Source of the DNA: a virus
Length of the DNA: 39,168 nucleotides
Strand: one strand, 5' to 3'
Virus record (IMG/VR): IMGVR_UViG_3300027773_000189
Location: 1-39,168 of that record
Below the pieces are notes generated by a model. That model was not told the DNA's origin and ran no database searches. It worked only from the letters and a program-made list of their open reading frames with translations. Numbering within the stretch: the stretch's first letter is position 1; each line of letters starts with the position of its first letter. Positions 1 to 31,616 of the stretch are shown piece by piece. Position numbers and translations under genes: made by a program.

Positions 1-3000
1 CTACTGAGGCTCAAATTCGGCGGTCAGATTCGCGTTGAAAAGAGACGTTGTGCAACCCGTCGCGGTGTAGCGCATTTGCAGCGTATCGCCCGCGTTGACC
101 TGGAAGTTTTGACCGCTCAGGCTCGTGCTATTTCCCGCTCCATTCGACACTGTCACCGTGTTGCTGTCGGTGCTTTGCGCCACGTCGTGAATCCAAAACG
201 AAATCGGAGACGTGCAACCCGCTGGCGCTCCCAGATTGATCTCGACCATTCCCCTGAGCACCATCGGCGTGGAGTTAGTCCACTGCGCGAACGTGACGCC
301 CGTAGCGTTCGATGTCTGGCTTAAATAAGCAGTCCAGGGAATGCGCGGATTCTTCGTCATCACACCATCGCCATTAATGTTGAGCGATGGCGGACTGACG
401 GTCTGGCCGAAGGTTGCCGGGCCAGGAATATTCACACCTCCAGTTGAATCGACTGTCGGCGGGTTCGCGCCCACGGCTCCTCCGGCAGCGTCGTTGTAGC
501 ACAGCAAATTACTCGTGCCGGGAATTAACTGATCCTGGTTCACTGTGGCGAGCAGCTTCTCAGTGCCGGTACTAGTGGATTCGTAGATGCCGTATTGCTG
601 CGCTCCAGCAAGCGGCACGAAGCACACCTGGTTCGTCGCGGAGGAGGATAACGACGCAGCTTGTGACGCGCAACTCGTCTCTGCAGAGGCCACGGCAGAA
701 GCTCCGGCCACAACGCCAGCGATCTTGTAGAAATAGGTCGTGGTTCCCGATCCGGAAAGTTTTGTGCACGTCTGACCTGTAACGGGGCCAATCTGACTGA
801 GCAGTAATTGTCCGACGATTCGCTGCTTTCCAAGCGTCGTAGTGTTGTTGCACTCAATGCTATCCGGCGATCCGCCGTAGTAGATCATGTCGGTATGGCA
901 GCGCGCGGTGCCAACCAACCAATCGCGCTTGAAGATCTGCGACTGGCGAAAATCCGGATATGTGAGTTGGAGATTACTCCACTTATTCAGCGGCGGATCG
1001 GCGACGTTGAAAGCGACGTTGGTGACCGACTGCACGTAATTCGGCCCTTGCGCGTATCCAGGACCTGAGTACCAGGTGTAGTTGATGGGCGCAGTGCCTG
1101 CCGGCATGATGCCGAGCAAAGTCAATCCATTGTCGGTTTCAACAGAGACATTTCCGCCGCCGCTCAGCGGACTGAAATCGATGATCTTTCCACTTTTGAT
1201 GGTTGAAGGACCTACCTGCCAGCTCACCGATCCATGCAGGTAGATCGGAATGTTATTCACTGAGTTGTTCGCAGCTCCAATTAGGAACTGATGGCTTCCT
1301 TCGCTGGTGAAGTTGAGCAGATCGAGGCGCAGCAGCCCGTTGGTTCCGCTGTAATTCGGATCGCCAATCACAATATCCGCAGTCGCGCTGGCGGAGATAT
1401 CGCACTCCCGACAGGAGAGATTTGATTCAGTCTGGATGCCGCGATCGCAGCCGTAGCACATGAAGCGATCGAGCGTGAGTTCGGCTGATTGATTCGAGAA
1501 TGCGTAGAAGCCGATGTCCGCGCCTTCGACCAGATCATTCGAGAAGAGCATCTGGTCATTGTTTGCGCCCCCCGTGGTTGGATATCCAGCGGGCGAGTCG
1601 AGCATGAATCCCCATTGGAACTGCGCACACTGATTTGGAATGAATGAGCCAGTGAAGCACGCGTTGGCTTCGGGATCGCCGCTGTTCGCGCCTCCTGTGT
1701 ACCAAGGTCCGATCAGATCATCTTCGAAGCGGTTGTACTGATTGTTGTGGTTGGTGGTTCCTCCACCTGGTTGCTGCAGTCGAATTGCAGCGCGCTGCTT
1801 GTTGCCGGAGACGCTGTAAACATGCACACCGCGGATGCTCGAGAACTGCGATCCGGCAATATAGAGCGCATCAGTCGGAGTCGTGTAGCTCTGATTCACG
1901 AGATAGATTCCGCAGCCCTGCAATGCGGGAGCTATGCCTCCGGTAGAGCTGAGATTTCCAGGACCAGGCGATACGAGGTTCAGGCTCTTATTCACAATGC
2001 TCACAGTGCCTGAGGTCATGTAGAGCCGGTTACAAGATACTGCGATCGGATTCAACCCCTCGTCCCCATTGGGAGCGAGTGCGGCCAGCGCAGAATTCAG
2101 ATTCGCGGTGTCGTCGCTGCCATAAAGGATTGACTGGCTAGTTCCATTTACGGAAGGCGCAACGTTTGTAGTGAGGACGATAGTCGTCGAATTCGTGACG
2201 CTCGCAATCGTGTCGGCCAGAGCCAGATTAGGACCGGACGTAATGCCGATCGACGGCGTTCCAGTGCAGCCAGATCCTGCATATACGACCGTGAGTGAAG
2301 CGACAGCGCTTCCGGTTTGATAGCTGCCGGCAGCGAGCACTGCTTTCAATTCAGGATTGTACGTGCAGGTCAGTCCGCTAACAGAGACGCTGGGCGCAGT
2401 TAGATAGCCGCTGCCGCCGGCAGTCACGGTGGGCGTAGTAATTGCGCCGCCAGACAGCGTCGTTGTCGCCGTCGCTCCTGATCCGTTTAAGCGCGCGCCG
2501 TACAGGACGACGAGTTTTCCTACGTCGCCCGCGGCGAAACTGGCTCCGGTGCATGAGATCGTGTAACTGCCGCTCGTGAACGTGCAGGCGCTCGGCAGAA
2601 ACACTGCATCACCCTTTGCCCAATGATCCAAGTTGAGCCAGGGCGAGATGGCGGTCCAGCGCGTCTGCAGGAAATTCTGCGTAAACACGCCACGTTTGCG
2701 ATCCGATACAAATTCGATCGAGCCGAGGTTCGCAGATGAAGCAAGTCCAGCATAAGTAGAAGTCGCGAGAGTGAACGTGCCTGTGAGCGAACCGGAGACA
2801 CTAAGATTGCCGTTCACCGTGAGCGGTCCATTCACGGTGCCGCCGCTCACTGGAATCAGCGCAACACCGGTGGGCGCATACGAATCCAAATTGAAACTCG
2901 TGCCGCTGATTCCAACTTTGCGGTAATCGATCACGAGCTGATTGGTGAGCGCATCACGGGCCTGGATGCGATAGAGCACGCCTGTCGGCGAAGTGTTCTG

Positions 3001-3273
3001 CGGATTTGGCACTTGCAGCGCTCCGCCGCCGATAGCGCTGGTAATCCCGCCATTCGAGATGTTGAAGCAGAACGGACGCTTCAGAATAGTGCCGCCGCCG
3101 CCAACCATGAAGTTGATGGGGCTGTCGTACTGATCGGTGGCAGTGAAACAGATCGTGCCGGCAGCAAGCTTATTCCCGTTTAGGTCCGCGATGTTCGATG
3201 CGCTGATCGCGGTGTAGTTCTGCGCGGCGGAAGCTGCGCACAAAGACAGCACAATAAAGGCGAGTTTCTTCAT
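1..3273 (-). CDS. Secreted tailspike-like protein with pectate-lyase-type beta-helix
   Basis: This 1090-residue protein probably binds or degrades a surface polysaccharide. It starts with a clear Sec signal peptide (MKKLAFIVLSLCAASAA, then Q). An N-terminal fibre-type domain follows, then a Gly/Ser/Val-rich linker (NGPLTVNGNLSVSG). Around residue 390 the SDDTANLNSAL stretch matches the opening of the pectate-lyase-superfamily helix found in phage tailspikes. The next 300 residues have the Asn/Gly-rich, turn-rich look of a right-handed beta-helix, and a beta-rich C-terminal domain closes the protein. I chose the internal ATG at 3273 because it gives an intact signal peptide and sits 4 bases after the upstream stop. 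The gene ends exactly at the window edge with TAG. A signal peptide on a tailspike is odd, because virion spikes normally assemble in the cytoplasm. It could instead be a host-surface or secreted adhesin carried as cargo. Confidence 0.8.
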   Translation of the reverse strand: MKKLAFIVLSLCAASAAQNYTAISASNIADLNGNKLAAGTICFTATDQYDSPINFMVGGGGTILKRPFCFNISNGGITSAIGGGALQVPNPQNTSPTGVLYRIQARDALTNQLVIDYRKVGISGTSFNLDSYAPTGVALIPVSGGTVNGPLTVNGNLSVSGSLTGTFTLATSTYAGLASSANLGSIEFVSDRKRGVFTQNFLQTRWTAISPWLNLDHWAKGDAVFLPSACTFTSGSYTISCTGASFAAGDVGKLVVLYGARLNGSGATATTTLSGGAITTPTVTAGGSGYLTAPSVSVSGLTCTYNPELKAVLAAGSYQTGSAVASLTVVYAGSGCTGTPSIGITSGPNLALADTIASVTNSTTIVLTTNVAPSVNGTSQSILYGSDDTANLNSALAALAPNGDEGLNPIAVSCNRLYMTSGTVSIVNKSLNLVSPGPGNLSSTGGIAPALQGCGIYLVNQSYTTPTDALYIAGSQFSSIRGVHVYSVSGNKQRAAIRLQQPGGGTTNHNNQYNRFEDDLIGPWYTGGANSGDPEANACFTGSFIPNQCAQFQWGFMLDSPAGYPTTGGANNDQMLFSNDLVEGADIGFYAFSNQSAELTLDRFMCYGCDRGIQTESNLSCRECDISASATADIVIGDPNYSGTNGLLRLDLLNFTSEGSHQFLIGAANNSVNNIPIYLHGSVSWQVGPSTIKSGKIIDFSPLSGGGNVSVETDNGLTLLGIMPAGTAPINYTWYSGPGYAQGPNYVQSVTNVAFNVADPPLNKWSNLQLTYPDFRQSQIFKRDWLVGTARCHTDMIYYGGSPDSIECNNTTTLGKQRIVGQLLLSQIGPVTGQTCTKLSGSGTTTYFYKIAGVVAGASAVASAETSCASQAASLSSSATNQVCFVPLAGAQQYGIYESTSTGTEKLLATVNQDQLIPGTSNLLCYNDAAGGAVGANPPTVDSTGGVNIPGPATFGQTVSPPSLNINGDGVMTKNPRIPWTAYLSQTSNATGVTFAQWTNSTPMVLRGMVEINLGAPAGCTSPISFWIHDVAQSTDSNTVTVSNGAGNSTSLSGQNFQVNAGDTLQMRYTATGCTTSLFNANLTAEFEPQ

Positions 3274-3277
3274 GGCT

Positions 3278-4030
3278 CTATTCGAACTTCTCAATCTTTT
3301 GCCGTTTGTTAAAGCCGGATGGCGCTGCGGCGCCTCCCGCCGGCTTGATGGTCACAGCGAGCACGTTGTAAGCGCCGCTGCCGGTGAAGTTTACTGTTTG
3401 TGCAACACCGGAGCCGCCGCTTAGGATTTTGTATTCGGTCCAGTCGCCACCGCCGTCGTTCTGTCCTTGCGTGTAGCCGCTACCCACGGCCGTCGTCGAA
3501 TCTTCGCAGACGCCCCACACCGCATCGTTGTTGTTCACTGGCGTTACGGTTCCCGAGCAGCTTCCCGTTCCGGTGGATTGATTGTGCGCATCGAAAGTTG
3601 TCGTCCCCCCTGTCGTGTCGTTTCCCGAAAACTCATCGGCTTTCCAGTCGCCGTAGGGACTACCTCCGCAGGTTCCACCACCCGTGAAAGTTGCGGTGAA
3701 CGTCGCGGCACTAGTACTCGGCGCGATCGCTGCAAATGATCCGACCCATCCAGCCGTCGTGCTGCCTTGCAGTCCGCTGATCGCGGTGATCGTCCATCCG
3801 CTTGCGCTAAGAGAGACCGCAGTCGGCGCTGTAGTCGCCGAGCAGGTCACTTCAAAAACGATAGCGTGGTTAGCGGCGCTGGGCGTGCATGCGAACGTAA
3901 ACGATCCACTGCTGATGGTTGCGGTTGTTCCCTTTACGGAACAGCCGCCGGCCACATGAGCAATCTGCGCCAGGCCGGCTCTGCTGCAGAACAGAACGAT
4001 GAAAAACGCAAGTGAGTAGAACCTCCTCAT
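3278..4030 (-). CDS. Small exported protein of unknown function
   Basis: This 250-residue protein begins with a signal peptide (MRRFYSLAFFIVLFCSRAGLAQ). The mature part is rich in Thr, Ser, Gly and Ala and has paired cysteines (CSVKG, FACTP, VTCSATT, GGTCGG, GSCSG, GVCED). This suggests a disulfide-stabilised beta-sandwich. The C-terminal part (VNFTGSGAYNVLAVTIKP) resembles the last strands of concanavalin-like or carbohydrate-binding folds seen in secreted proteins of soil bacteria, but I do not recognise the family. The ATG at 4030 overlaps the TGA of the upstream gene (ATGA) and opens directly on the signal peptide, so I prefer it to the upstream in-frame ATG. The tailspike gene starts 4 bases after its stop, so the two are probably cotranslated. 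Confidence 0.75.
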   Translation of the reverse strand: MRRFYSLAFFIVLFCSRAGLAQIAHVAGGCSVKGTTATISSGSFTFACTPSAANHAIVFEVTCSATTAPTAVSLSASGWTITAISGLQGSTTAGWVGSFAAIAPSTSAATFTATFTGGGTCGGSPYGDWKADEFSGNDTTGGTTTFDAHNQSTGTGSCSGTVTPVNNNDAVWGVCEDSTTAVGSGYTQGQNDGGGDWTEYKILSGGSGVAQTVNFTGSGAYNVLAVTIKPAGGAAAPSGFNKRQKIEKFE

Positions 4031-4392
4031 TGCATCGTCACCTGCCACGGCGGACTCACGATCGTTTGCACCTGCTGGCCGTTTTTGGTCGTAACCGTTC
4101 CAACCTGCCAATTGATCGGATTGCTGTTGTTATCGACCGTTGGAATGGCAATGGTTGCGGAGGAATTCGGCGGTTGCGTGTAGCTCCACACAATCTGCGT
4201 GCCGGTCGCAGCGTCGAAGACGTTGAACACCGCAGCTCGCGATGGATCGTTGTTGGTGACCGTGACCTGGCTGGTGCTCGTGTTGATCTGCAGCACGACC
4301 AGTCCGTTCTCCAGCGAGGATGTGTGTACCAGCGCGGCAAAGGCTGTCAGCGAAGTGAGAATGAGAATTATTAGCAGCATGGGCATTTTCAT
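4027..4392 (-). CDS. Small exported beta-rich protein of unknown function
   Basis: The 121-residue product has a strong signal peptide (MKMPMLLIILILTSLTAFA). About 100 mature residues follow with alternating beta-type sequence (VVLQINTSTSQVTVTNN, IVWSYTQPPNSSATIAI). This pattern suggests a single immunoglobulin-like or beta-sandwich domain. It has no cysteines and no recognisable catalytic motif. Its stop overlaps the start of the next exported gene. The upstream leader carries an AGCT-rich junction repeat whose AAGGAG may help as a distant Shine-Dalgarno. It could be an accessory of the neighbouring fibre and spike proteins. Confidence 0.7.
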   Translation of the reverse strand: MKMPMLLIILILTSLTAFAALVHTSSLENGLVVLQINTSTSQVTVTNNDPSRAAVFNVFDAATGTQIVWSYTQPPNSSATIAIPTVDNNSNPINWQVGTVTTKNGQQVQTIVSPPWQVTMQ

Positions 4393-4403
4393 ATGCGACG
4401 GTT

Positions 4404-4440
4404 GCTTCTAAGCTCCTTAAGCTCAGCAGCTAAGAAGCTC
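4404..4440 (-). repeat. AGCT-rich junction repeat
   Basis: This 37-bp intergenic stretch is built of GCTTCT, AGCTCC, TTAAGCT, GCAGCTAAGAAGCTC units. It can fold because GCTTCT at one end pairs with AGAAGC at the other. Read on the minus strand it contains AAGGAGCTT ahead of the 4392 gene. It shares its vocabulary with the repeats near 7977, 12861, 20861, 22421 and 31530. Confidence 0.7.
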
Positions 4441-4442
4441 AT

Positions 4443-7400
4443 TTACGGAGTAGTCGTCTCCATCCACTCGAAGGTGACCGTTACATTTCCACCGGTCAGA
4501 GCGCCGCCGAGATTGATCGCGACTTCTTGGGCTACACCTCGAAGCACAATGGGCTTTGACGGCTTGAAGAAGTAGATATCGTTCGAAGCAGCGGTTCCCG
4601 GGGCCATACAACCGATCTGCGCGTTGTCCAGATCGCCGACTGCGGTTCCCACTGTGGGCCCGGTGCCTGTATAAGAAAGCAGCGCACTCGACGCCGCGGC
4701 GTAATTCGAATCATCCGGAACCTCTGTGAAGCCTGCCGACGTGCCTCCAGTGTCCGCCGTCGATCGCTTGATCAGTTCGACACTTATTTGCCCCGCTGTC
4801 GTTTGCGTACAGGTCAGCGTGATCCTCGTTAGAAGGACAGTGTTGCTTGCGTTGCCAGGAATGACAGCGATATCCGTCGTAGAGCTGGCAGCGAACTTCT
4901 TAGAAGCGTGATAGCTGGCTGTCCCCGTGTCGGGGTATTCCTTAATGATCTGGCGTCCATTGGAATCAGCAGCGACTGCGTTGCCGGCAACCTGATTTAC
5001 GTTCACCGGCTGCGTAACTGCCGAGCCATCGACCTTAATTGCCGTTGTGTTCGCTGCAGTGCCAGAGAGATCGACCTTCAAATTTGCGGCGGTGGACTGC
5101 TGGACCGTGACGGTTCCCGAAACGGGCTGCGTCGTCGTACCTGTGGGATCGACGCGGACTGGAGCCCCTGAAACGCCGAGCTGGTTGCCGCTCGCGTCGT
5201 ACAGAGCGACATCCAATCCCTGGTGATTCGCGCCTGACGCCGTTGAAGTAACGTCGGCTGCGGAGGTTGTTCCTTTAGCGCCGCCTCGATTGATCGCCTT
5301 TGTCGAGCCTCCGGTCAGCGTGGCATCAAGCGCCAGGCCGTTGGTCGTGCCAACATTCGCAGTCACCGTTCCACTGACCGGCTGCGTTACCGCTGATCCA
5401 TCGATTTTGATCGCAGTCGCGTTGGCCGCCGTTCCGGAGAGATCGACCTTCAAATTCGCCGCCGTGGACTGCTGGACCGTGACGGTTCCCGAAACGGGCT
5501 GCGTGGTCGCGCTGCTGTCGGTGCGGATCGCACCGGCGGTTGTCATTGAGATCGGCGCGATCGTGCCGTTCGCCGGAGATGGCGCAGCGCTTTGCACGGC
5601 AGCGAAATATAGGAACGGCCCATTGTTTACCGCCGCGCGCGCGAGCCAGTTAGCCGTGCCCGATGTATAGCTTGTCACTTTGATCTGCGCGTTGCTCGCG
5701 TGCGGTGGGCAGATGACCGGATAGTCAGTCGTAGCCTGAGCCGACGCAATCGTCGCAGTCTGCGCGAGCTGCCCCGTTACGGGATCTTGGATGTAGCCAT
5801 TGACGTTGTAGAGCGTGCCGCCATCGAACGAACACTGCGGCGTGACCGTATAGACGCCGGTCCCCCCGGATTGAAGCTGGAAGGTAGCTCCGGTCTCACC
5901 GGCGAGCGCAATGGTGATGGTCGCGTTGAGCGCTCCGAGAGCCGTGCTCCCGGTACTCGTGTCTCCCGCAGCCGAGCACCCAGCCTTGCAGTTAACCCAC
6001 AGGCCGCTCGCCTGATCGCCCTTCGCTGTGACGAGCTGCGATCCCGCGGCCTGTCCTGTGTCGAGCAAGCGAACCACGGACGTTACCTTCTGCCTGGCAG
6101 CATCGCTTTCCGACGCTGCTGCGTTCGCCGCAGCGTCTGCTGGACCTCCGCCAGTTCCACCTCCGGAGACGATGCTGACTTTCACCGCGTGATTCGTTGT
6201 GTCCGTTGCGTCTGCGCCGCCTGAATCGACTTGCTTAGTCGCGAAGGTCCCACTTCCTGCGTTCGCAGTGACGGTTCCCGAAACGGGCTGCGTGGTCGTC
6301 CCTGTCGGATCGACGCGCACTGGAGCCCCGGAGAGGCCGAGTTGGTTGCCACTCGCGTCGTAGAGAGCAACGTCGAGTCCCTGATGATTGGCTCCGGACG
6401 CAGTGGACGTAACATCTGCGGCCGACGTAGCTCCCTTTGCGCCGCCGCGGTTGATCGCTTTTGTCGAGCCTCCGGTCAGCGTGGCATCAAGCGCCAAGCC
6501 GTTGGTCGTGCCAACATTCGCGGTGACCGTTCCGCTCACAGGCTGCGTTACCGCTGAACCATCGACTTTGATCGCAGTCGTATTGGCTGCCGTTCCGGAG
6601 AGATCGACTTTTAGATTCGCAGCAGTGGACTGCTGAACAGTTACAATTCCCGAAACGGGCTGAGTGCCGCTGGGAATTGGGCGCGTAACGATGCCGTACT
6701 CGCTGCCGGCAGGCGTTGAGTTCAGGACTTTTGCGCCGTGAATTGCTGGAGTCCCCGCTGTATCGAAGCCTCCGATAGCCACGGGATTCTGCGCACTTGT
6801 GCTTCCTTCGGCGAACAGACCTTGAACAAGCGGATCGCCAGGCACGAAGTTCGCGCCGTCCCCAATTGGAATCTTCCCTGCGGCGGCAGCGCCGTTAATC
6901 TTGAATCCTCCAGCGAGATTCACGCTTGCATTGAATGTGTGAGCGCCAGTCCAGGTCGGAGCAATGCTGGTATCAAGCTGACAATCGGTGCGCGTTGCAC
7001 CGGAGTTGTCGGCGCAAACGATGCCGCTAAAGAAGTTAACTGTCGTCCGTTGCGCGAGATTGGTTGCCGCGTTTTGAATGCGGTTGTACCCGCCGCCGCC
7101 CACGCCTCCACAGGCTGAGCCAAGACACGTTATCGCCGTGACATCGATGGGACCATTGATCGTCTGCAGGCCGCCGCCTGTGGGGTTCGTCACGACGGCG
7201 TTCGGCGTCACGATCGCTGGCGATGTGGTCGCCGCGGCGGCGCTCTCGAGTACGAATGCGCCTGGTCCGACCACGTAAGGCACGGTCTTGCCGTTGGGTC
7301 GGCCATTGACCAGGACGGTGACGTTGTATTGCGTGGTGTTCAGCGTGCCCTGGCAGTCGATCAACGTATTCGGGTAGAGCGCCCCGCTGAAAGCTCCCGT

Positions 7401-7664
7401 GGTCGAGTTGACGGCGAAATCCTTCTTGTAATCGCCGAGGATCGCAACGCCATCAACGCGAGCCTGACCGTTGGGGCATCCAATCAGTTCGAAGCGGATC
7501 GAGGTGCTTCCTGGTGCGCTGCCGTCTGGAATCAGTACGTGTCCCGAAACCGGAACGGTCGTCTGAGCAATCGCGACGGTAGAGGCGAGCAGCAACGTTG
7601 CCGGCTTCAAAAAATGCCAGACGCGCTCACCAGCGCGCCTGGCGCGACAGAGGAGAAGTTTCAC
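4443..7664 (-). CDS. Exported fibre-like protein with long internal repeats
   Basis: This 1073-residue protein starts with GTG and has an N-terminal signal sequence: a basic stretch, then FLKPATLLLASTVAIAQ. Mature residues 35-150 form a beta-rich domain (VPVSGHVLIPDGSAPG, PNTLIDCQGTLN) that resembles the N-terminal domain of the tailspike-like protein encoded at 1-3273. The centre holds two near-identical copies of about 130 residues plus a third partial copy. They are marked by TQPVSGTVT, STAANLKVDLSG, GSTKAINRGGAKG and GLDVALYDASGNQLG. Repeats of the TQPVSGTV kind are common in phage fibre and structural proteins. The C-terminal 180 residues form a separate beta-rich domain ending FEWMETTTP. 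The start lacks an ideal ribosome site, so its first residues are uncertain. Receptor binding or adhesion is inferred; the signal peptide argues for placement outside the cytoplasmic membrane. Confidence 0.75.
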   Translation of the reverse strand: MKLLLCRARRAGERVWHFLKPATLLLASTVAIAQTTVPVSGHVLIPDGSAPGSTSIRFELIGCPNGQARVDGVAILGDYKKDFAVNSTTGAFSGALYPNTLIDCQGTLNTTQYNVTVLVNGRPNGKTVPYVVGPGAFVLESAAAATTSPAIVTPNAVVTNPTGGGLQTINGPIDVTAITCLGSACGGVGGGGYNRIQNAATNLAQRTTVNFFSGIVCADNSGATRTDCQLDTSIAPTWTGAHTFNASVNLAGGFKINGAAAAGKIPIGDGANFVPGDPLVQGLFAEGSTSAQNPVAIGGFDTAGTPAIHGAKVLNSTPAGSEYGIVTRPIPSGTQPVSGIVTVQQSTAANLKVDLSGTAANTTAIKVDGSAVTQPVSGTVTANVGTTNGLALDATLTGGSTKAINRGGAKGATSAADVTSTASGANHQGLDVALYDASGNQLGLSGAPVRVDPTGTTTQPVSGTVTANAGSGTFATKQVDSGGADATDTTNHAVKVSIVSGGGTGGGPADAAANAAASESDAARQKVTSVVRLLDTGQAAGSQLVTAKGDQASGLWVNCKAGCSAAGDTSTGSTALGALNATITIALAGETGATFQLQSGGTGVYTVTPQCSFDGGTLYNVNGYIQDPVTGQLAQTATIASAQATTDYPVICPPHASNAQIKVTSYTSGTANWLARAAVNNGPFLYFAAVQSAAPSPANGTIAPISMTTAGAIRTDSSATTQPVSGTVTVQQSTAANLKVDLSGTAANATAIKIDGSAVTQPVSGTVTANVGTTNGLALDATLTGGSTKAINRGGAKGTTSAADVTSTASGANHQGLDVALYDASGNQLGVSGAPVRVDPTGTTTQPVSGTVTVQQSTAANLKVDLSGTAANTTAIKVDGSAVTQPVNVNQVAGNAVAADSNGRQIIKEYPDTGTASYHASKKFAASSTTDIAVIPGNASNTVLLTRITLTCTQTTAGQISVELIKRSTADTGGTSAGFTEVPDDSNYAAASSALLSYTGTGPTVGTAVGDLDNAQIGCMAPGTAASNDIYFFKPSKPIVLRGVAQEVAINLGGALTGGNVTVTFEWMETTTP
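5105..5502 (-). repeat. Intragenic direct repeat, copy 2
   Basis: This roughly 400-bp block encodes the run from TQPVSGTVTVQQ through GSTKAINRGG and GAPVRVDPTG. It is nearly the same as the block at 6265-6662, with scattered mostly synonymous changes. The first about 120 bp of the motif occurs a third time at 5017-5134. Boundaries are approximate. Confidence 0.75.
6265..6662 (-). repeat. Intragenic direct repeat, copy 1
   Basis: This is the partner of the block at 5105-5502 in the same fibre-like gene. The two encode almost identical protein, differing for example by TVTVQQ/IVTVQQ, ANTTAIKV/ANATAIKI and GATSAAD/GTTSAAD. This points to duplication inside the gene followed by mild drift or gene conversion. 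Confidence 0.75.
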
Positions 7665-7688: not shown

Positions 7689-7970
7689 TCAGCGAATACG
7701 TGCGGCGACTGCGGACTGTGCGGAAGAGTTGGCTTGTTTGGGATCGTCGAGTCCGAACTTCTCTCGAATCTTGTTGCGGTACTGTACCACGGAATCGTAG
7801 GAGATCCGCCACGGACTCCGCGCGCGCAACTGATACGCTTCCAGGCTGCCGTCTTCGATCAGGCGCAGTACCGTATCGGGACTGGTGTTGAGCAGGCGCG
7901 CTGCGCGAGTCGCCCCGATCTCGAAGGAGCTGGTGAAGAGCGACATCTGGCGTCCAGTGATGGGTTTCAT
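7689..7970 (-). CDS. Excisionase/MerR-like helix-turn-helix protein
   Basis: This 93-residue protein contains a compact DNA-binding domain at residues 18-70: an ATRAARLLNTSPDTVLRLIEDG helix-turn-helix, then LEAYQLRARSPWRISYDSV. That layout is typical of the HTH_17/excisionase family, where a wing follows the recognition helix. I chose the ATG at 7970 because the longer frame upstream runs through the junction repeat and reads as nonsense. A hairpin followed by six T residues lies directly upstream. The gene may therefore be expressed by readthrough or form its own unit with the downstream exported block. It is a candidate local regulator of those genes. Confidence 0.75.
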   Translation of the reverse strand: MKPITGRQMSLFTSSFEIGATRAARLLNTSPDTVLRLIEDGSLEAYQLRARSPWRISYDSVVQYRNKIREKFGLDDPKQANSSAQSAVAARIR

Positions 7971-8011
7971 AAAAAAGGCTGCTGAGCTTCTAGCTGCTAA
8001 GCTCCTGAGCC
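7971..8011 (-). terminator. Hairpin plus T6, possible terminator or attenuator
   Basis: On the minus strand, GGCT-CAG-GAGCTT, a 9-base loop and AAGCTC-AGC-AGCC form a stem of 6 bp plus 4 bp around an internal loop. Six T residues follow directly at 7976-7971. This fits a Rho-independent terminator. It overlaps the last codons of the gene ending at 7997, and the next ATG begins right after the T run. It is also a member of the AGCT junction-repeat family. Confidence 0.5.
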
Positions 8012-8422
8012 CGAGGGCTTCTTCAGTTGCGTTGTGGTGATGATCAGCACGCCTGCTTCCGCGAGCGACAGCATGTCGCGCAGCTTTGAACTCAGCGCGA
8101 TGGCGGCCTCGCACGAAGCGCAGGCTTCGGAGTCTTCAGGCTCGCAGTTGTGACATTCCGTCGCGTCGTTGCGGTCTTCGTCGATCTGCACGAGCCAGCG
8201 CAGTTCGTCGAGGCTCAGGTCGTATCGCTTGTACATTACCTGAGCGGTGTTCGGATTCGGCGCTACAGGAGGCGGTGGATCGAGGCACACGATGAGGCCG
8301 ATGCCTGAGTTCGGCGCGTGGACCCACTGCTGCGTGAGTTCTCGCCAGATCGGCGTGTCGCCGTCCATGCAGCGATGGCACAACTTCACCCGATCACCCG
8401 ATGACCCGATTACCCGATTCAT
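7997..8422 (-). CDS. Early protein with two Cys-pair motifs, unknown function
   Basis: The 141-residue product has two putative zinc-binding regions: LCHRCMDGD near residues 14-22, and CHNCEPEDSEACASCEAA near residues 91-108. A middle segment (YDLSLDELRWLVQIDEDRN) looks helical. The ATG at 8422 is well supported by GGGAGGAG four bases upstream, inside the end of the GemA-like gene. The first 11 codons are made of an 8-base tandem repeat (ACCCGAT units on the plus strand), so the N-terminus is repeat-derived. The stop codon lies inside the hairpin at 7977-8011. I do not recognise a family. Nucleic-acid binding through zinc is plausible but inferred. Confidence 0.65.
   Translation of the reverse strand: MNRVIGSSGDRVKLCHRCMDGDTPIWRELTQQWVHAPNSGIGLIVCLDPPPPVAPNPNTAQVMYKRYDLSLDELRWLVQIDEDRNDATECHNCEPEDSEACASCEAAIALSSKLRDMLSLAEAGVLIITTTQLKKPSGSGA
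8388..8418. repeat. 8-bp tandem repeat, four copies
   Basis: ACCCGAT begins at 8388, 8396, 8404 and 8412, an exact 8-base period with one variable base between copies. It lies just inside the start of the gene at 7997-8422. Because 8 is not a multiple of 3, gain or loss of a unit would shift the frame. Confidence 0.8.
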
Positions 8423-13887: not shown

Positions 13888-14846
13888 TGCACCCTCCGTT
13901 CCGGCGATGCTTCCTTGATCGCGGTGATGCCGAAGAACAGGCGTCGTGCGCTGATGTACTCGGTCTTCTTGCGGACATCCGGAACGCGGGAGTCGCCGAT
14001 CAGCTTCGCGATCTGCTTCGCGGTGACTTCGCCGATCTCCTCGCGGACGATCTGCTCGGCTTCGGCGTCGGTGATGCCCGGCAACTCAACGGCGGCGCGC
14101 AGGCGCGAGTTCCACTGCTCCAGCTCCATCGATCGCTGGAAGGTGCGAATCAGGTCATGCGATCCGGCAAAGAGCAGGCCGCAGTGGAGGCGATCGAGGA
14201 GCTCACGTACCGTCTCGAGACAATCGACGCTCAGGTGCTGCGCCTCGTCGAATACCAGCAGCACGCGGCGTTTCCCAAAATCGAACCGCAGATTTCTGAT
14301 AACGCGATCCGTGTCGCCGGCAGTAATGGTGCCGCACGCCTCGGCAACGCGCTTCAGCAGTTGGTTCGGGCGAATCGCCTGGCGACAATAGACGTAGTAG
14401 GCGCGGCGGCCATGACCGTTCTTCGCCAGCTCCTCGCGATTCAGCTCGGCAATCAGGTGTTCGAGCGCGAAGGTCTTCTGCGATCCCGGTCCGCCATAGA
14501 TCACTCCGGCGCGTTGTTTATCGAGGCAGTCATAGAACACGCGGCGCAGCGTGCGGACGTTAGCGGTCTCGTAGAGCTTGCCTTCGGTCTCGGTGAACGG
14601 GGCAATGGGATGCGCGGCGATGAAGTCAGAGATGGCGGCGCATATCGCGGCGTCGTTGGCGGCAACGCTTTCATATCGACCAGCGATGAAGAAGTTCAGC
14701 GACACCTGGCTGTAGTTAATGCGGCGCGCGAAATCGCGAGTGTTCAGCCCGGTGCGATTCAGGTAATCCTGCAGCATGGCGCGAACGTCATTCGAGCGCG
14801 CGCTGCTCGCGCGAAGCTGCTCTTTCCTTTCCGCCGAGAGTGCCAT
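13884..14846 (-). CDS. MuB-type AAA+ ATPase, transposition target selector
   Basis: This 320-residue protein is the size of Mu B. Residues 1-85 hold a helix-turn-helix domain (TGLNTRDFARRINYSQVSLN) as in Mu B's N-terminal region. A Walker A motif GGPGSQKT lies at residues 118-125. A Walker B with VLLVFDEAQHLS places the acidic pair at D200/E201. MuB-family ATPases bind DNA as filaments, choose target sites, stimulate the transposase and provide target immunity. The gene starts in a TGATG overlap with the transposase stop and has AGGAGG just upstream, so the two are translationally coupled. Confidence 0.9.
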   Translation of the reverse strand: MALSAERKEQLRASSARSNDVRAMLQDYLNRTGLNTRDFARRINYSQVSLNFFIAGRYESVAANDAAICAAISDFIAAHPIAPFTETEGKLYETANVRTLRRVFYDCLDKQRAGVIYGGPGSQKTFALEHLIAELNREELAKNGHGRRAYYVYCRQAIRPNQLLKRVAEACGTITAGDTDRVIRNLRFDFGKRRVLLVFDEAQHLSVDCLETVRELLDRLHCGLLFAGSHDLIRTFQRSMELEQWNSRLRAAVELPGITDAEAEQIVREEIGEVTAKQIAKLIGDSRVPDVRKKTEYISARRLFFGITAIKEASPERRVQ

Positions 14847-16825
14847 CAGTCCTCCTCGTAGAAGTGCTTCACCATGTCGTCGTAGCCAACTGGAGCGGCA
14901 GCGACGGACGGAATTGCGACTGCTGGAAGCGCGCGTGTTCTCTGCACGCGCATGGGTCTTGCTGCAAGTCCTGCGCGTTCGCGCAGAATTTCGATTTCGG
15001 AAAGCTCACCACGAGACTCGCTGCGAGCGATAAGTCCGCCGATGTAGTCCTTCATCGCGCGACGAACGCGACTGCGTTGGCGCATCGAGGCTCGGATTTC
15101 GTCGCGGGAAACAGGACCGTGCTCCATCAGCTTGCTGGCCTGGAGCGTGGCGAGATAGTTGCCTTCCAGGTCCATCGCAATCGCCTCGCCCATGTTGGCG
15201 GGATCGCACGCAATCAGGACGCGCTTCTCTATCTCCAAGGTCATATTGCGAAGACTGTCGTTCAGCACCGGCTCGTAGCGATGTCCGTCCAACTCGATGC
15301 ATCCGCCTTCACGCACAACGCGCACTTCGCGGCGGCGCAACAACACGTCAAGAGCGCGTGGATCGCAGGGGCGGCGTTGCCCCACTGGATATTCGGCGTC
15401 GAAGATCTCATTCGGGGTTCTACCGTCCATTCCCTGCCCGGTGTGCTTGTGCTCGGCGTTGTACTCGCTGATCCAATAGGCCGCGAGCTGGAGGAACTCG
15501 CTGGCCAGGGGCAGCGGCGATTGTTCGATCTGGCCGGACTTCATCAGCTTCTGGTGCTCGGCAAGGACCTGGTCGCACTCTTCCGGTCGCTCCTTTGGCG
15601 AATGGCCGGAATAGAACGGGCCCCACTTTGCATCGAAGCGCGCGTGCAGAGTGCCAAACCAGCGCTCGATATGCTTCGATTGCGGATGCTTGGGAATGCA
15701 ATACTGCGATTCGATCCCCAGCCTCACGAGCACGCCGGAAGCCTGCGGCGAGAGCATCACTTTGCGCCCGAGCGCCTTCATGTCTTTGCCGTTGTCGATG
15801 TAAAACGTCTTCGGCTTCCCGAATTGAGAAATGGCAATTCGCAGCGCGGCGGAGAGCGTATCGCTCGAAGGCGTGGCGCAATGGACGAAGCCGAGACACT
15901 TGCGGGTGCGGTAGTCGATGATGGCAGTCAGCCACGGGCGGATCGGCGCGTCCAATGGATGATCCGGGAAGATGTCATTGCGGACCCACACGTCGTGGAT
16001 CATGTGATCGCTAACCCAGATGTCGTTCGCCAAGTGGTCGGTGTACTTCTTGACCAGGAACATCTCGCAGCGGTCGTGATAGGCGCGTTCGCCCTCGCGC
16101 GAAATGATCTGCAGCGGCTTCGGCAGGCCGCGCAGGAAGGTGCGGACCGTATCGTAGCTGGGCGCGTCCAGAGTGCGTTTGCCGCACTCGCGCAGCAGCG
16201 CCTCGTGGACTGCCGTGATGCTCAGGCGCTCGGAAAGATACTTCTTTTCGGCGAACTCGCGGAGAACCGGATTCTCTTCGAAGTAGCGGGAGGTCCCCTT
16301 GTCGGAGCGAGCGCGATCGGCGAGAGCCGTCCATCCGTGCTTCCTGAATCGGGAATACCATCGCCACAGCGTTCGCTCCGAGATGTTGCGTTGCTGCGCG
16401 ATCCACTTCGTAAATGCGCCGAGGCTGCGAAGATGAGGAGCGTTGGGCTGCTTCGATCCGAACTCAAGAAGCGGCGCGATAGCTTCATAGCGTTCCTGCG
16501 CCTGCTTCTCAAGTTCGGGCGGGAGAACGGCCCTGTGCGCGTCGGCCAGCTCTGGCGCTGAATCAAAAATGCCGCGCTGCAGATTGACGCTGGGAGAACA
16601 GACAGCGCTCGGCTGTGCAGCACGCGCGAGGCTAAGTTCGAAGTATTTGCGTTGCGCTTCGCCTGGAAGAGAGTGGACGGCATATTCGCGGTGCTTGCGC
16701 CCATTACGAAGAGTCTTCTTCGACATGCGCGTCTGCACTTCGCCGATCGATACCTTCATCTCGATCGTCCGCGGAGCCCAGCCGGTGAGTTCGCCGACTT
16801 CCTGTTTGGAGATCCAGGCGGTCAT
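14846..16825 (-). CDS. MuA-type DDE transposase
   Basis: The 659-residue protein matches Mu A (663 residues) in length and domain order. Residues 1-65 form the Mu-type winged helix (ISKQEVGELTGWAPRTIEMK). Residues 140-245 form the end-binding helix-turn-helix region (WRWYSRFRKHGWTALADRAR). Residues 265-400 form the RNase-H-like core. I place the catalytic triad at D273 (VSDHMIHD), D344 (YIDNGKDMK) and E387 (KHIERWFGTLH). A beta-barrel domain and a basic tail, where Mu A contacts MuB, end the protein. It should bind phage ends, nick and join them to target DNA for both integration and replication. Start and stop overlap the flanking genes. Confidence 0.95.
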   Translation of the reverse strand: MTAWISKQEVGELTGWAPRTIEMKVSIGEVQTRMSKKTLRNGRKHREYAVHSLPGEAQRKYFELSLARAAQPSAVCSPSVNLQRGIFDSAPELADAHRAVLPPELEKQAQERYEAIAPLLEFGSKQPNAPHLRSLGAFTKWIAQQRNISERTLWRWYSRFRKHGWTALADRARSDKGTSRYFEENPVLREFAEKKYLSERLSITAVHEALLRECGKRTLDAPSYDTVRTFLRGLPKPLQIISREGERAYHDRCEMFLVKKYTDHLANDIWVSDHMIHDVWVRNDIFPDHPLDAPIRPWLTAIIDYRTRKCLGFVHCATPSSDTLSAALRIAISQFGKPKTFYIDNGKDMKALGRKVMLSPQASGVLVRLGIESQYCIPKHPQSKHIERWFGTLHARFDAKWGPFYSGHSPKERPEECDQVLAEHQKLMKSGQIEQSPLPLASEFLQLAAYWISEYNAEHKHTGQGMDGRTPNEIFDAEYPVGQRRPCDPRALDVLLRRREVRVVREGGCIELDGHRYEPVLNDSLRNMTLEIEKRVLIACDPANMGEAIAMDLEGNYLATLQASKLMEHGPVSRDEIRASMRQRSRVRRAMKDYIGGLIARSESRGELSEIEILRERAGLAARPMRVQRTRALPAVAIPSVAAAPVGYDDMVKHFYEED

Positions 16826-23777: not shown

Positions 23778-24479
23778 ATGACTTCGCGAGAGAAGCGGAG
23801 ACACCCTGGCGTCGGCCAAGCGAGGAAGACGCGCCAGCCGCTCCGAATCGACAGACTGCCGGAGCAGTGGCGGCAGCAACTGTTGGTTTATCGGGCGAAG
23901 GGATGCACCTGGGCCGAGATCGAGGAGTTGAGTCGTGGCCTTTTATGGGATTCCGAGGAGGCGAAGGATGCACGCCGGCTGTTTCCCGAACTGAGAATTC
24001 CGGCGACGACGCTGGCGCGCTGGTACGACCTGCGCGTCGAACAAGTGAATCGCGAGATCCAGGCGCGGAGTGAACAAGCTCGCACGCTGGCCCAGGCGTT
24101 TGCAGGCGCGAATCTATCGAAGACCGACGAAGCGGTGGTCAACGCGCTGAGAGACACGATCTTCGCCGAGATGCAGAAGTCGAACGCGGCAAGCCGCGAA
24201 GACCTGATCGAGGCGTTGACCAACTTGGGAATGCTGCTCACGAAGATTAAAACCAACGAGATTCGCGAGCGGAAAGTGAAAGTCGACGAGCTGGCCGCAG
24301 AGCTTGCCAAGCGTAAGACGGACGCGGCCCTGAAGAAGTTCGAAGAAGCAAGTGCGCAGGCAAAACGAAAACTCGAAAAGGGACAGAAGCTCGGGATTGA
24401 GGATCTCAATCGTATTCGCGAGCGCGTGTTTGGTCTCGATCCTCTCAAGCCAGGCGCTGGGACAGCAGCCAATGCCTAA
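23778..24479 (+). CDS. Small terminase-like protein (Mu gp27/DUF3486 type)
   Basis: The 233-residue protein has a helix-turn-helix region (LPEQWRQQLLVYRAKGCTWA, EIEELSRG) and long helices (RTLAQAFAGANLSKTDEAVV). A conserved-looking C-terminus follows (ALKKFEEASAQ, IRERVFGL). The sequence and its place just before the large terminase match the Mu gp27 family, the probable small terminase that recognises the DNA to package. Its stop overlaps the large terminase start by eight bases. Confidence 0.8.
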   Translation: MTSREKRRHPGVGQARKTRQPLRIDRLPEQWRQQLLVYRAKGCTWAEIEELSRGLLWDSEEAKDARRLFPELRIPATTLARWYDLRVEQVNREIQARSEQARTLAQAFAGANLSKTDEAVVNALRDTIFAEMQKSNAASREDLIEALTNLGMLLTKIKTNEIRERKVKVDELAAELAKRKTDAALKKFEEASAQAKRKLEKGQKLGIEDLNRIRERVFGLDPLKPGAGTAANA

Positions 24480-26004
24480 GAAGGTGAAGGCCAGGACGCC
24501 GCGAGCCGAAGTCCTCAATCAGGACATCGTGCTACCTGCGTTATTCCAGCTTCGCCCATATCAAAAGGCGTGGGTCGATGATCCGGCAAGGGCGTGCTTC
24601 GCTGTGAAGTCGGCGCGAATCGGCTTTTCTGTCGGGACAGGCATCAAGCGCACGATCAAATGCCTGGCACGCGAGAACCGCACTTGCACCGTGCTCAGCG
24701 CTTCAAAAGCTCAGTCGATTGAGTTCGTCGAGAACGTACAGAAGAACGTCCAGGCGATGGGCGCGATGGCGCAGTACTTCCCGGAAGAGACCTTCACCGA
24801 CTTCGAGGGGGCGACATCGATCACGCAATCTCGCATTCAGTTCCCGAACGGTTCACGAATCATCGCGCTTCCGGCTAATCCCAGAACGGCACGCGGCTAT
24901 CCGGGCGACGCGGTCCTGGATGAATTCGCGCATCATCAGGATAGTTATGCGATCTGGGCAGCGATCATTCGCCAGATCGCGCTTGGTAATGAAATCGACG
25001 TGCTGTCCACTCCGAATGGCGAACAGGGCAAGTACTTCGACCTGGCGAAAGAGCTCGGGATGACCGATGGCGTTGCGCCTTCGCCAAATCCTTCCCAATT
25101 TGGAATCTGGTCGCGTCACTGGATAGACGTGCATCTTGCGGTGGCTCAGGGTTGTCCGATCGATATTCAGCAGATGCGCGAGCTGATCCGAGACGAAGAC
25201 ACGTTCGCCCAGGAATTCCTGTGCGTCTTCCTGAAAGCCTCCGGCGCATGGCTGCCGCTGGAGCTGATCGCCCAAGCCGAGGACGACAATGCCACGACTG
25301 CATGGCCGAGCGGATACGTGCCGAGCGGTCCTCTCTTCGCCGGCATCGACGTTGCGCGCGATCGCGATACCACTGTGATGTGGCTGGATGAGCGGATCGG
25401 CGACGTGTCCTGGACGCGTATGGTTCTGCGGCTTCACGGGATGCCCCTGACCGAGCAGCACGATCTCCTGGCGCCGTTCGTGCAGATCACGACCCGCACC
25501 GCGATCGACGCGACCGGCATGGGCGTCGGCCTTTACGACATGCTCGACAAGAGCTGCCGTGGCCGCGTGATGGGAATCAACTTCGCCGGAGTAAATGAGC
25601 AGCACGTCCGTTTCAAAACGGACCTTGCGATCCGCATCAAGAAAAAGTTCGAGATCGCGAAGAGTCGCATTCCGCGCGACAACGACATTCGCCAGGAGCT
25701 GATGGCGATCAAGCGTGAGAGCACCGCAACCGGCGTGAAGTTCGACGCGCCGCGCATCGAGTTGGAAAGCGCAGTAGCTGGAGCGCAGAAGAAAAAAGTG
25801 TACGGCCACGCGGATTCATTCTGGGCGAAAGCTCTTGCAGATCTCGCCGCCGATTCAGCTCCTGACGCAGTGATCGTCTCCGTTCCATTGGGCCGCGATG
25901 ACTACCGCGCGCCACGACAGACCGCGTTCGGAGATCGGACCATCGATGAAGAGACGACGCCGATCGGCGGGCTGACTGTCGAGAGGAGAAGCCGATGGGT
26001 TTAA
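24472..26004 (+). CDS. Large terminase (Mu gp28-like)
   Basis: The 510-residue packaging motor has an ATPase half with a Walker A-like VKSARIGFSVGTG at residues 45-57. Its Walker B is AVLDEFAHH, with D150/E151. A nuclease half follows, with GIDVARDRDTTVMW (D293) and DATGMGVGLYDM. It cuts and pumps DNA into the head. I took the ATG at 24472 because the long upstream extension overlaps the gp27-like gene in another frame. The length is typical for Mu-like terminases. Confidence 0.9.
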   Translation: MPKKVKARTPRAEVLNQDIVLPALFQLRPYQKAWVDDPARACFAVKSARIGFSVGTGIKRTIKCLARENRTCTVLSASKAQSIEFVENVQKNVQAMGAMAQYFPEETFTDFEGATSITQSRIQFPNGSRIIALPANPRTARGYPGDAVLDEFAHHQDSYAIWAAIIRQIALGNEIDVLSTPNGEQGKYFDLAKELGMTDGVAPSPNPSQFGIWSRHWIDVHLAVAQGCPIDIQQMRELIRDEDTFAQEFLCVFLKASGAWLPLELIAQAEDDNATTAWPSGYVPSGPLFAGIDVARDRDTTVMWLDERIGDVSWTRMVLRLHGMPLTEQHDLLAPFVQITTRTAIDATGMGVGLYDMLDKSCRGRVMGINFAGVNEQHVRFKTDLAIRIKKKFEIAKSRIPRDNDIRQELMAIKRESTATGVKFDAPRIELESAVAGAQKKKVYGHADSFWAKALADLAADSAPDAVIVSVPLGRDDYRAPRQTAFGDRTIDEETTPIGGLTVERRSRWV

Positions 26005-27542
26005 CTCTTCTCGATCTTCGCGAAGCTAAAGCTGCCGTGCAACCCCAACCTGCGGCGAAGCCGGCACAAGTCAAAGAGTATCTCTCGCCAACACTCTTCG
26101 GCTTGGTATCCGGAGATGGCGAGGACGCGCGTTACCGTCGCATCACAGCGCCCGCAACACTGCGTGACCTGAATCCGCTGATGCACATGCGGATGCAGCA
26201 GGTGTGTTTTTTCCTGAAAGCCACGACTCCGTTCGGAAAGCGAATCGTCGAGCTCATCGTCAGCTACGTTGTTGGCGAAGGATTCAAAGTCGTCGCGCAG
26301 GACGCAGCGGTCCAGGAAGTGATCGACAAATTCTGGACGGATAACAATCTCGATGAAGCACTCGCTTCCTGGTGTGATGAGACGATCACTCTCGGCGAGC
26401 TCTGCCTTCCCGTTTCCGTAAACGACGTGGATGGATCGGTGAGGCTGGGATATGTCGATCCTCTAAACGTGGAGTCGATCGAATACGGAACGCTCACCAC
26501 GGTCGAAGGCACGCAGACGATTGCTTCTCCCACTGCGGTTCGCTTGAAGCTCATGCTCGGCCAGCAGTCGCAGGAGCGTCTGACGATTGTTCGACGGGAC
26601 GACGATCCAAACTCGCCGACATGGGGCAGGCTCAACGGCCAGTGCTTCTTCTTCGCGATAAACAAAGCGAAGAGCGCGACGCGCGGGATCTCCGAGCTGT
26701 TCACGCTGGCCGACTGGATCGATGTCTTTGACCAGGCGATCTTCGATTTTGCCGATCGCGTGCGCTACCTCAACGCATTCGTCTGGCATTACATCCTGAA
26801 CGGCGCAGACAACAAGGCAGTTGAAGCCTTCAAGAAGGAGGTCACGAAGAATCCTCCGCGCCAGGGCGGAGTGATGGTGACCAACGAGCAGGTAAAGATC
26901 GAAGCGCAGACGCCGCAGTTCCACGGTTCGGACATGGCCGACGCCATGACGCTGATCAAGAAGTATGGACTCGGCGGCGCTGGCTTCTCGCCGATGTTCT
27001 TCGGCGATCCTGTCGATTCCAACCGGACCACCGCCAACGAGATGGAAGGTCCTACAGGGAAGAAGCTCACGCTGCGACAGAACGAGCTGCGCCGGTTCCT
27101 CAAGACCGTCATCGACTTCGTTATCGACCAGGCCGTCGTCCACGGAGTAATTCCCGAAGGCGCGAACACCAGCTACTCGATCCAGGTGCCGGACCTCCTT
27201 ATTAAGGACATTCAGAAGGCGGCGACGACGCTGCAGGGACTTACGGCATCGATGGCCGTGGCCGAAGATCGCGGCTGGGTGCAAGGCGAGACTGCGGCGC
27301 GCGCGATCCACGTTGTGCTCTCGCAGCTCGGTGTCGATGTCGATTCAAAAGAGGAATACCAGCTCGCGCAAGAGGAGAGTGCCAACAAGAAGGCGCAGGC
27401 GATCAACGACATGGCCGATCAAGGTCAACTCGCCGACGCGCTTGATCAGGCGAAGAAGCTGAACAAAAATCAGCCGCGCACACCGGAGGCGAATGCAGCA
27501 GCTACCGGCAGCGAAGGCGAGCCAGGGTTGAGGGTGAATTGA
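25995..27542 (+). CDS. Portal protein
   Basis: The 515-residue protein begins with a polar N-terminus. The portal-type core follows (TPFGKRIVELIVSYVVGEGF, FWTDNNLDEALASWCDETIT, LGYVDPLNVESIEYG, PRQGGVMVTNEQVKIEAQTP). A charged C-terminus ends the protein. It forms the ring through which DNA enters the head. Position between terminase and Mu F-like protein agrees. It overlaps the terminase stop by 10 bases. Confidence 0.85.
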   Translation: MGLTLLDLREAKAAVQPQPAAKPAQVKEYLSPTLFGLVSGDGEDARYRRITAPATLRDLNPLMHMRMQQVCFFLKATTPFGKRIVELIVSYVVGEGFKVVAQDAAVQEVIDKFWTDNNLDEALASWCDETITLGELCLPVSVNDVDGSVRLGYVDPLNVESIEYGTLTTVEGTQTIASPTAVRLKLMLGQQSQERLTIVRRDDDPNSPTWGRLNGQCFFFAINKAKSATRGISELFTLADWIDVFDQAIFDFADRVRYLNAFVWHYILNGADNKAVEAFKKEVTKNPPRQGGVMVTNEQVKIEAQTPQFHGSDMADAMTLIKKYGLGGAGFSPMFFGDPVDSNRTTANEMEGPTGKKLTLRQNELRRFLKTVIDFVIDQAVVHGVIPEGANTSYSIQVPDLLIKDIQKAATTLQGLTASMAVAEDRGWVQGETAARAIHVVLSQLGVDVDSKEEYQLAQEESANKKAQAINDMADQGQLADALDQAKKLNKNQPRTPEANAAATGSEGEPGLRVN

Positions 27543-28414
27543 GCGCACGCCAGCAACAATTCGCAGCCAAACTCGACGAGCTGAGGAAGCGTTCGCGTGC
27601 TCTTCCGCCGAAGGCGCGCCAGGAGATCGTGGATCTGCTGGAAGAGGCGAAGAAGAAGATCATCGCCGAAGTCGCGACCCTCGATCCCAACAGCTTCACC
27701 GCGGCGCAACGAACCGCGCTGAAGGTGTCGATTGATCGCGCCCTGGCTCAGTTTCGTGCGCAGGCAACCGAGAAGGTGAATCAGCTCCAGGCCGCAGCCG
27801 CAGTGATCGGCGTGCAGAGCGTTGATGAGCCACTGGCCGCATCGGGAATTGGCGATGCGAGTCTTGGCCAGGTGTCGGCATCCACGCTTTCGATCGCGCA
27901 AGGCTACACCGCCGATCTGATCACCGGTCTCTCAGCCGACGCATCCGCCAAAGTCAACTCCGCGATCTCGCGAGCTTTTCTCGGCGGGCAGGGGATGAGC
28001 GACATCATCCGGCAGGTATCGCTTGCGCTAGGCAAAGACTCACCGACTGCGGGCCGCGCGATCACGATTGCGAACAACGAAATCCTGCGCGTGCAGTCGA
28101 TCGCGACTCAATCGCGAATGGAAGACCTGGCGGAGCGCCATCCCGATCTGCAGAAGGAGTGGCTGCACATACCTGCGGCGCGTGTTCCCAGAGTGGGACA
28201 CATCATCGCCGACGGTCAGGTCGTGGATGTGGACAAGCCGTTCAACGTCGAAGGCGAGGACTTGATGTATCCGCGCGATCCAAACGGATCTCCGGAAAAC
28301 ACCATCAATTGCCACTGCCTCTCGCGCCCCTACATCGCGCCGGACAAGCTGATGGCAACTGACGCGCACAGAAGCTTGCTTGACTCGCTGGGCATATCAG
28401 TGAGCGCTGCTTAA
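27539..28414 (+). CDS. Mu F-like minor head protein
   Basis: The 291-residue product starts with TTG in a TTGA overlap. Its first half is helical. The last 100 residues carry the Mu F signature: NEILRVQSIATQSRMEDLAE, KEWLHIPAARVPRVGHIIAD, YPRDPNGSPENTINCHCLSR. The conserved Asn-Cys-His-Cys at the end is typical. Mu F and SPP1 gp7 relatives sit at the portal inside the head and help head assembly. Confidence 0.85.
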   Translation: MSARQQQFAAKLDELRKRSRALPPKARQEIVDLLEEAKKKIIAEVATLDPNSFTAAQRTALKVSIDRALAQFRAQATEKVNQLQAAAAVIGVQSVDEPLAASGIGDASLGQVSASTLSIAQGYTADLITGLSADASAKVNSAISRAFLGGQGMSDIIRQVSLALGKDSPTAGRAITIANNEILRVQSIATQSRMEDLAERHPDLQKEWLHIPAARVPRVGHIIADGQVVDVDKPFNVEGEDLMYPRDPNGSPENTINCHCLSRPYIAPDKLMATDAHRSLLDSLGISVSAA

Positions 28415-28431
28415 AGGAGGCAGCAAAACAG

Positions 28432-31612: not shown

Positions 31613-31616
31613 ATAA

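Follow-up and report, generated by a model that had tools for sequence, protein, structure and literature searches.

The 39,168-nucleotide (nt) stretch analysed here over its whole length (the window), IMG/VR record IMGVR_UViG_3300027773_000189, is a Mu-like prophage record of an acidobacterial lineage with a siphophage gene set, and four consecutive genes at its left end encode proteins that begin with predicted Sec signal peptides (SPs). Two of the products are large and fibre-like, and one of these, a 1090-amino acid (aa) tail spike, belongs to a family of phage fibres sharing an N-terminal domain (NTD). In most family members an SP immediately precedes this domain, the mature proteins have even cysteine counts, and the genes occupy genomic slots that signal-less fibres also use. 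Export of the fibres is well supported by these sequence features, and we infer that the exported fibres may join virions. Tail fibres are proteins of a known kind; for a fibre family with apparent Sec signals in the slots of signal-less fibres, no precedent was found in the literature searched.

Signal peptides in the four-gene block and the NTD family

The original prediction described four signal-bearing, fibre- or spike-like genes on the minus strand. The four open reading frames (ORFs) were recovered there at 1-3273, 3278-4030, 4027-4392 and 4443-7664, and each opened with a tripartite n-h-c Sec SP ending in an Ala-type -3/-1 site for signal peptidase I (SPase I). SP calls were made by home-made scoring throughout, and ORF calling was greedy. 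In the above order the scores were 4.63, 3.92, 4.72 and 3.54; the corresponding p values from residue shuffles were 0.0008, 0.015, <0.0002 and 0.028, and in none of the four proteins did an internal 60-mer window reach the SP score. Among about 40 hand-picked window genes, the four consecutive block genes scored as SPs; the other scorers were ORFs that are short, probably encode membrane proteins or have an uncertain start. The fibre label held for the two large proteins and was not borne out for the 121-aa and 250-aa products, which had no clear family match. Searches of Pfam, PHROGs and PDB sequences with the four window proteins returned only weak or spurious matches, none of them convincing.

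The 1090-aa tail spike or fibre (1..3273, minus strand) comprises a 17-aa SP at 3223..3273 on the same strand (MKKLAFIVLSLCAASAA, with predicted cleavage between SAA and QNYT), an NTD of ~111 aa and a long body. Across four homologues of the spike (alignment A1), the n- and h-region sequences varied and the A-QN junction was invariant. The 1073-aa repeat-rich fibre (4443..7664, minus strand) has a GTG start and an SP of 33 aa (VKLLLCRARRAGERVWHFLKPATLLLASTVAIA, followed by QTTV), while a downstream TTG gives an SP of 15 aa (MKPATLLLASTVAIA, followed by Q), so that an SP is predicted whichever start is used. Its N-terminal domain differs from the NTD, and from about residue 148 onward its body shows homology to the SP-bearing fibres of loci L004 and L005.

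Between the two large genes lie those of the predicted exported proteins of 250 aa (3278..4030, minus strand; SP of 21 aa, MRRFYSLAFFIVLFCSRAGLA, followed by QIAH) and 121 aa (4027..4392, minus strand; SP of 19 aa, MKMPMLLIILILTSLTAFA, followed by ALVH). Homologues of the 121-aa protein were 95% identical in L004 and 83% identical in acidobacterial genome G504, and those of the 250-aa protein in L004 and L005 likewise began with an SP. The model of the 250-aa protein was all-beta and of low confidence. Its C-terminal KRQKIE is part of a basic motif, [FV][NS]KRQK[IL][EQ][KR], common to the 250-aa proteins of the window (3278-3320, minus strand), L004 (9452-10201) and L005 (2795-3556), and the motif was kept in the L005 protein although the remainder was only 27% identical. 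The look at related prophages that was originally suggested showed the same cassette in L004, where a fibre and homologues of the 121-aa (95%) and 250-aa (71%) proteins lie together upstream of the portal gene. Beside that cassette, between terminase and portal, a HipA/HipB-like gene pair was recognised by eye (L004:5140-6854, minus strand). The small companions were rare, A3 and the 121-aa protein occurring in only 1/33 genomes.

To define the distribution of the NTD, a profile (A5) was built from mature sequences only, and the SP calls were therefore unbiased by the query. The domain was found in 34/298 genomes of one acidobacterial order, and 48 homologues from viral contigs and acidobacterial genomes were kept after fragments had been trimmed. 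An SP lay directly before the NTD in 39 of the 48, its end coinciding with the start of the domain; the start of the nine signal-less members lay no more than a few residues from the NTD, and most had a stop codon a short way upstream. Scores were bimodal, at 3.4-5.4 in signal-bearing members versus <1 or none in signal-less ones. When cleavage could be moved by as many as 3 residues to reach an A-Q junction, residue -1 was Ala in 39/39, -3 was mostly Ala and +1 was Gln in 27/39, the SPs being 15-30 residues long. As a control, 1/158 neighbouring virion or early phage genes from recurrent clusters scored as an SP, and this one marginally. Support for real Sec signals on fibre-like proteins, as originally proposed, extends far beyond the window.

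SP state was clustered on the NTD tree, where it changed two to three times in a direction that is not established, so that signal-less clades are nested among signal-bearing ones. A dual start yielding a cytoplasmic isoform was rejected as a general explanation, a ribosome-binding start near the junction being present in only 2/39 signal-bearing members; chance capture of a host gene was likewise rejected, 45/48 homologues lying in phage contexts. Two loci showed unusual arrangements. At L035:7447-9885 (minus strand), a holin-like membrane ORF continues in frame, with no intervening stop, into an SP-bearing NTD fibre, and a strong ribosome-binding site (GGAGGAGG) precedes the fibre's own start. 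At about 11840-12165 of L040, one NTD fibre is followed by another copy that a frameshift or an assembly error has divided between two frames; a small, predicted exported protein comes next.

Cysteine parity and tail-fibre slots

Even cysteine counts were observed in 33/35 mature signal-bearing fibres (19/20 after dereplication at 40%, p about 2e-5) versus 35/57 controls, and within the NTD in 38/39 signal-bearing versus 4/9 signal-less members. The mature forms of the 1090-, 1073-, 250- and 121-aa window proteins have 22, 12, 6 and 0 cysteines, all even, and the count of 22 recurs in the three closest full-length homologues of the spike. A TIC/PFC cysteine pair was present in 19/39 signal-bearing and 0/9 signal-less members. 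Profile columns 25 and 52/53 were jointly cysteine in 19 signal-bearing and no signal-less sequences (p = 0.007, relatedness being ignored), and cysteine in column 25 never occurred without cysteine in column 52/53. Exported proteins are known for a bias toward even counts (PMC7678975), and the fibres share it. Since the mature counts are even, the SPs are likely to be functional; cysteine parity, which is separate from SP scoring, supports oxidative folding outside the cytoplasm.

Neighbour genes were identified by PHROGs representatives, and in 45/48 cases the NTD gene shared its strand with phage genes for structure or mobility. Five recurrent slots were distinguished. Slot A, with the order tape measure-fibre-Dit-tail protein-phrog_2134 protein, held signal-less fibres in L033, L088 and L089 and signal-bearing ones in L092, L099 and L113. 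Both kinds were also found in slot B, after the central fibre J (signal-less in L036, L091 and L093; signal-bearing in L114), and in slot C, after the tip protein (signal-less in L095 and L097; signal-bearing in L096 and L102). Slot D, after the phrog_1101 tail protein, held signal-bearing fibres in L039, L040, L083, L084, L085, L087 and L098. Slot E is the end of the early operon in Mu-like prophages, occupied by signal-bearing fibres in the window, L037, L100, L105, L109 and L110 and by a signal-less one in L090. In the cleanest pair, L088 (signal-less) and L099 (signal-bearing) of slot A, the tail tubes were 77%, the phrog_2134 proteins 63% and the Dit proteins 55% identical, and the fibre NTDs were 44% identical and aligned from residue 2 in L088 and residue 25 in L099.

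The original prediction had emphasised that the block sits away from the late genes. This is true of the window, where the block follows the early operon, an arrangement shared with six other Mu-like prophages, and does not generalise, since most relatives carry their SP-bearing fibres inside the late tail operon, in slots also used by SP-less fibres. Prophage edges in the relatives were located by host genes only; in slot E such genes lay close behind the fibre (YceG, cytidylyltransferase, ArgJ, RibD and an outer-membrane barrel). At the opposite end of the prophage in G185, G443, G441 and G563, the tip-protein gene is the last of the late operon and no NTD gene is present there; the edge gene is therefore the only NTD fibre found in these four Mu-like prophages.

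Structural modelling addressed the NTD. In the AlphaFold model of the 1090-aa spike, the predicted local distance difference test score (pLDDT) was about 70 for the NTD and <50 for most of the remainder, leaving the body unusable; the proposed fibre-like features of the large proteins stood, and the proposed beta-helix went unconfirmed. With VIA-align, the NTD model best matched residues 1-105 of 8kec_b, one or other of the two tail fibres of cyanophage A-1(L), with Z 9.3, a root-mean-square deviation of 3.1 and 20% identity over 95 aligned residues; a Bxb1 tail-tip protein also matched (Z 6.5). In A-1(L) the baseplate is the anchor point of both fibre types, the long type being attached via a shoulder domain spanning Met1-Ile155 (PDB 8KEC; PMC10966104). 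The window spike would resemble these fibres in the predicted fold of the NTD and in the position of this domain at the front of what may be a modular, receptor-binding fibre. A-1(L) differs in being a myophage of a cyanobacterial host with no sequence-level match to the NTD, and its fibre lacks an SP, because the matched domain begins at residue 1. For the whole-spike model, Foldseek gave no match at E <= 0.001; jelly-roll-like matches at spike residues 945-1073 were left unused, the model there being of low confidence.

GDSL esterase modules were found in signal-bearing (L034, L099, L103, L114) and signal-less (L033, L036, L088) fibres, so that several NTD homologues resemble the polysaccharide-deacetylating GDSL/SGNH tail fibres of phages. 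To our knowledge, typical fibres of that class have no export signal. The window proteins gave no GDSL match, and the spike body, with its low-confidence model, gave no Pfam match. The signal-less NTD fibres (L033, L036, L088, L089, L090, L091, L093, L095 and L097) share the NTD family, the slots and the GDSL modules with the signal-bearing ones; they differ in beginning with the NTD and in lacking both the TIC/PFC pair and cysteine parity within the NTD.

Proposed virion completion at lysis and competing explanations

With slightly better than even confidence, we favour the explanation that the tail fibres are exported to the periplasm, oxidised there and joined to virions at or after lysis. 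The block would comprise the tail fibre or spike proteins and two small companions of an acidobacterial Mu-like siphophage, made as precursors with cleavable SPs. Sec export to the periplasm and cleavage by SPase I are well supported by the predicted signals, and folding there with disulfide bonds is supported by cysteine parity. Lysis proteins would then open the cell, allowing fibreless cytoplasmic tails to meet periplasmic fibres, and docking of the NTD at the tail tip would complete the virion, at lysis or afterwards. SP-less relatives would produce fibres of this type by the ordinary cytoplasmic route, the export step acting as a switch that changed only a few times in the NTD family. Docking after lysis is plausible because purified fibres can be added in vitro to fibreless particles of phages such as T4 and P22. 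The stronger proposition, that a tailed-phage lineage finishes its virions outside the cytoplasm by docking Sec-exported, disulfide-bonded fibres onto fibreless tails only at lysis, falls a little short of an even chance in our estimate. If it is true, the fibres would form a shared pool that could bind the producer's own envelope before lysis or be taken up by other phages.

Several points weigh against completion of virions with exported fibres. The NTD homologues are related and not independent, and in the window the block belongs to the early rather than the late operon. Docking would require periplasmic fibres to find cytoplasmic tails, and the docking role comes from the fold match of one domain modelled at pLDDT about 70, the NTD sequence profile having found no relative among solved structures. 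Receptor binding could also be the task of the tail-tip protein itself. The SP scorer also flagged 8-14% of other, unrelated ORFs in the loci, host genes and wrong starts included, as would be expected if the signals reflected chance or wrong start codons; that idea is scarcely credible in view of 39/48 homologues versus 1/158 neighbouring phage genes, a junction that is always the same and bimodal scores.

The fibres may instead be exported and never enter the virion, serving as secreted enzymes or adhesins of fibre origin. They would deacetylate or bind polysaccharide of the envelope, or block the receptor on the cells that produce them, thereby shielding the lysogen against superinfection and keeping progeny free of debris, a purpose comparable to that of the T5 Llp lipoprotein. 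SPs and cysteine parity fit such a role equally well, and the small companions bear SPs too. The edge position behind the early genes of Mu-like prophages (across a 24-base gap in the window) is a usual place for accessory genes, and in the window it suggests synthesis before the late genes, as would suit a receptor block. In L004 the cassette sits between the terminase and portal genes, next to an inserted gene pair that is unrelated. Against these stand an NTD that resembles a virion-docking domain and is kept in every member, the occupation of SP-less fibres' tail-operon slots by SP-bearing genes, and the failure to find a second NTD fibre in the Mu-like prophages examined; we regard this explanation as a serious one, if somewhat unlikely. 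The original prediction had offered secreted adhesins, depolymerases or decoys alongside tail parts that join virions outside the cytoplasm. Because the slots are shared and the only NTD fibre found in other Mu-like prophages has its standard place at the edge, the balance moves from a decoy or adhesin of lysogeny toward a tail part passing through the periplasm, with a free depolymerase or a receptor block still in contention.

An improbable alternative is that the signal is vestigial or bypassed, fast cytoplasmic trimerisation allowing the fibre to escape Sec and assemble ordinarily with its N terminus uncleaved or trimmed. Tails are indeed assembled in the cytoplasm, and same-slot SP-less relatives show that cytoplasmic assembly is possible; however, an unused signal should decay, whereas the n-h-c form and the -1 Ala are retained among NTDs that share little identity; the even cysteine counts indicate an oxidising compartment, and a ribosome-binding start for an SP-less form is the rarity (2/39) noted above. 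Phages use signal-anchor-release (SAR) domains in endolysins, and the lengths and hydrophobicity of the SPs could permit insertion of a comparable uncleaved anchor, which would retain the fibre in the inner membrane until the cell lyses or the fibre contacts a virion. This is very improbable, given that in nearly all members the Ala -1 junction, mostly A-Q, directly precedes a folded domain, as is typical of cleavage.

Known phage systems offer partial parallels to fibres exported and joined at lysis. T5 Llp is a phage-encoded receptor-blocking lipoprotein, and the window proteins are likewise phage-encoded, predicted exported proteins that could act on the producer's envelope. Unlike Llp-type small lipoproteins, they are of the SPase I type, none of the four having a lipobox Cys at +1, and include large, putatively modular fibres. 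The pIII and pVIII proteins of filamentous phages are virion proteins with cleaved Sec signals, and those virions assemble in the inner membrane; NTD-fibre phages, in contrast, are tailed, and their tails assemble in the cytoplasm. For SPs on tailed-phage fibres, fibre attachment after lysis and gene transfer agent tails, the literature searched, in which subscription journals were thinly covered, offered no precedent. The absence of the SPs of bacterial surface proteins from the target proteins of phage diversity-generating retroelements was taken as support for phage origin (PMC6199706). Although SP absence has served in this way as a mark of tail proteins, a whole family with tail-fibre anatomy and synteny bears functional-looking signals. 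If this holds true, either a step of tailed-phage assembly can occur outside the cytoplasm or the fibres have a second, pre-lysis role on the producer, and same-slot pairs such as L099/L088 open the matter to direct testing. Annotation pipelines could call SP-bearing fibre genes host exoproteins, and caution is warranted there.

The prophage record and neighbouring genes

The leftward early operon of the window, with which the block forms a tight run (gaps of 24, 50, -4 and 4 bases), is headed by a Mu-like transposase gene (14846..16825, minus strand; phrog_310, E 9.8e-98). Beside it lies a MuB-like ATPase gene (13884-14846; phrog_296, E 5.6e-32), and the two together mark a Mu-like transposable prophage. 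Directly upstream of the block is an HTH/excisionase-like gene (7689..8114, minus strand; HTH_17, phrog_2907), and the same neighbour stands beside the fibre gene in L037, L100, L109 and L110. The window also encodes a repressor, followed by a rightward late operon (24352..39168, plus strand) with genes for terminase, portal, head morphogenesis, protease/major head, neck, minor tail and, last, tape measure; none of the structural genes identified in it bore an SP.

The 1090-aa gene has its stop codon at base 1 and the tape measure gene at base 39168, which argues that the record was trimmed at gene boundaries. In related Mu-like prophages, ~4-5 kb follow the tape measure gene (two genes for proteins of ~220-290 aa and a tail-tip gene), and the tail-tip genes are therefore probably missing from the window record. 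The nearest relatives of the window are IMG/VR contigs and Acidobacteriota genomes; the isolated phages of INPHARED gave no match to the 1090-aa spike or its NTD, and an Rfam search over positions 1-9000 found nothing.

Two further features of the rightward genes were observed. The terminase large subunit ORF, when extended to a GTG at 24352, overlaps the previous gene and begins with a signal-like stretch (24352-24480); this start is most likely wrong, the true one lying at about 24478. Early in the rightward operon, a DNA methyltransferase gene (phrog_56) is located at 19412-20365.

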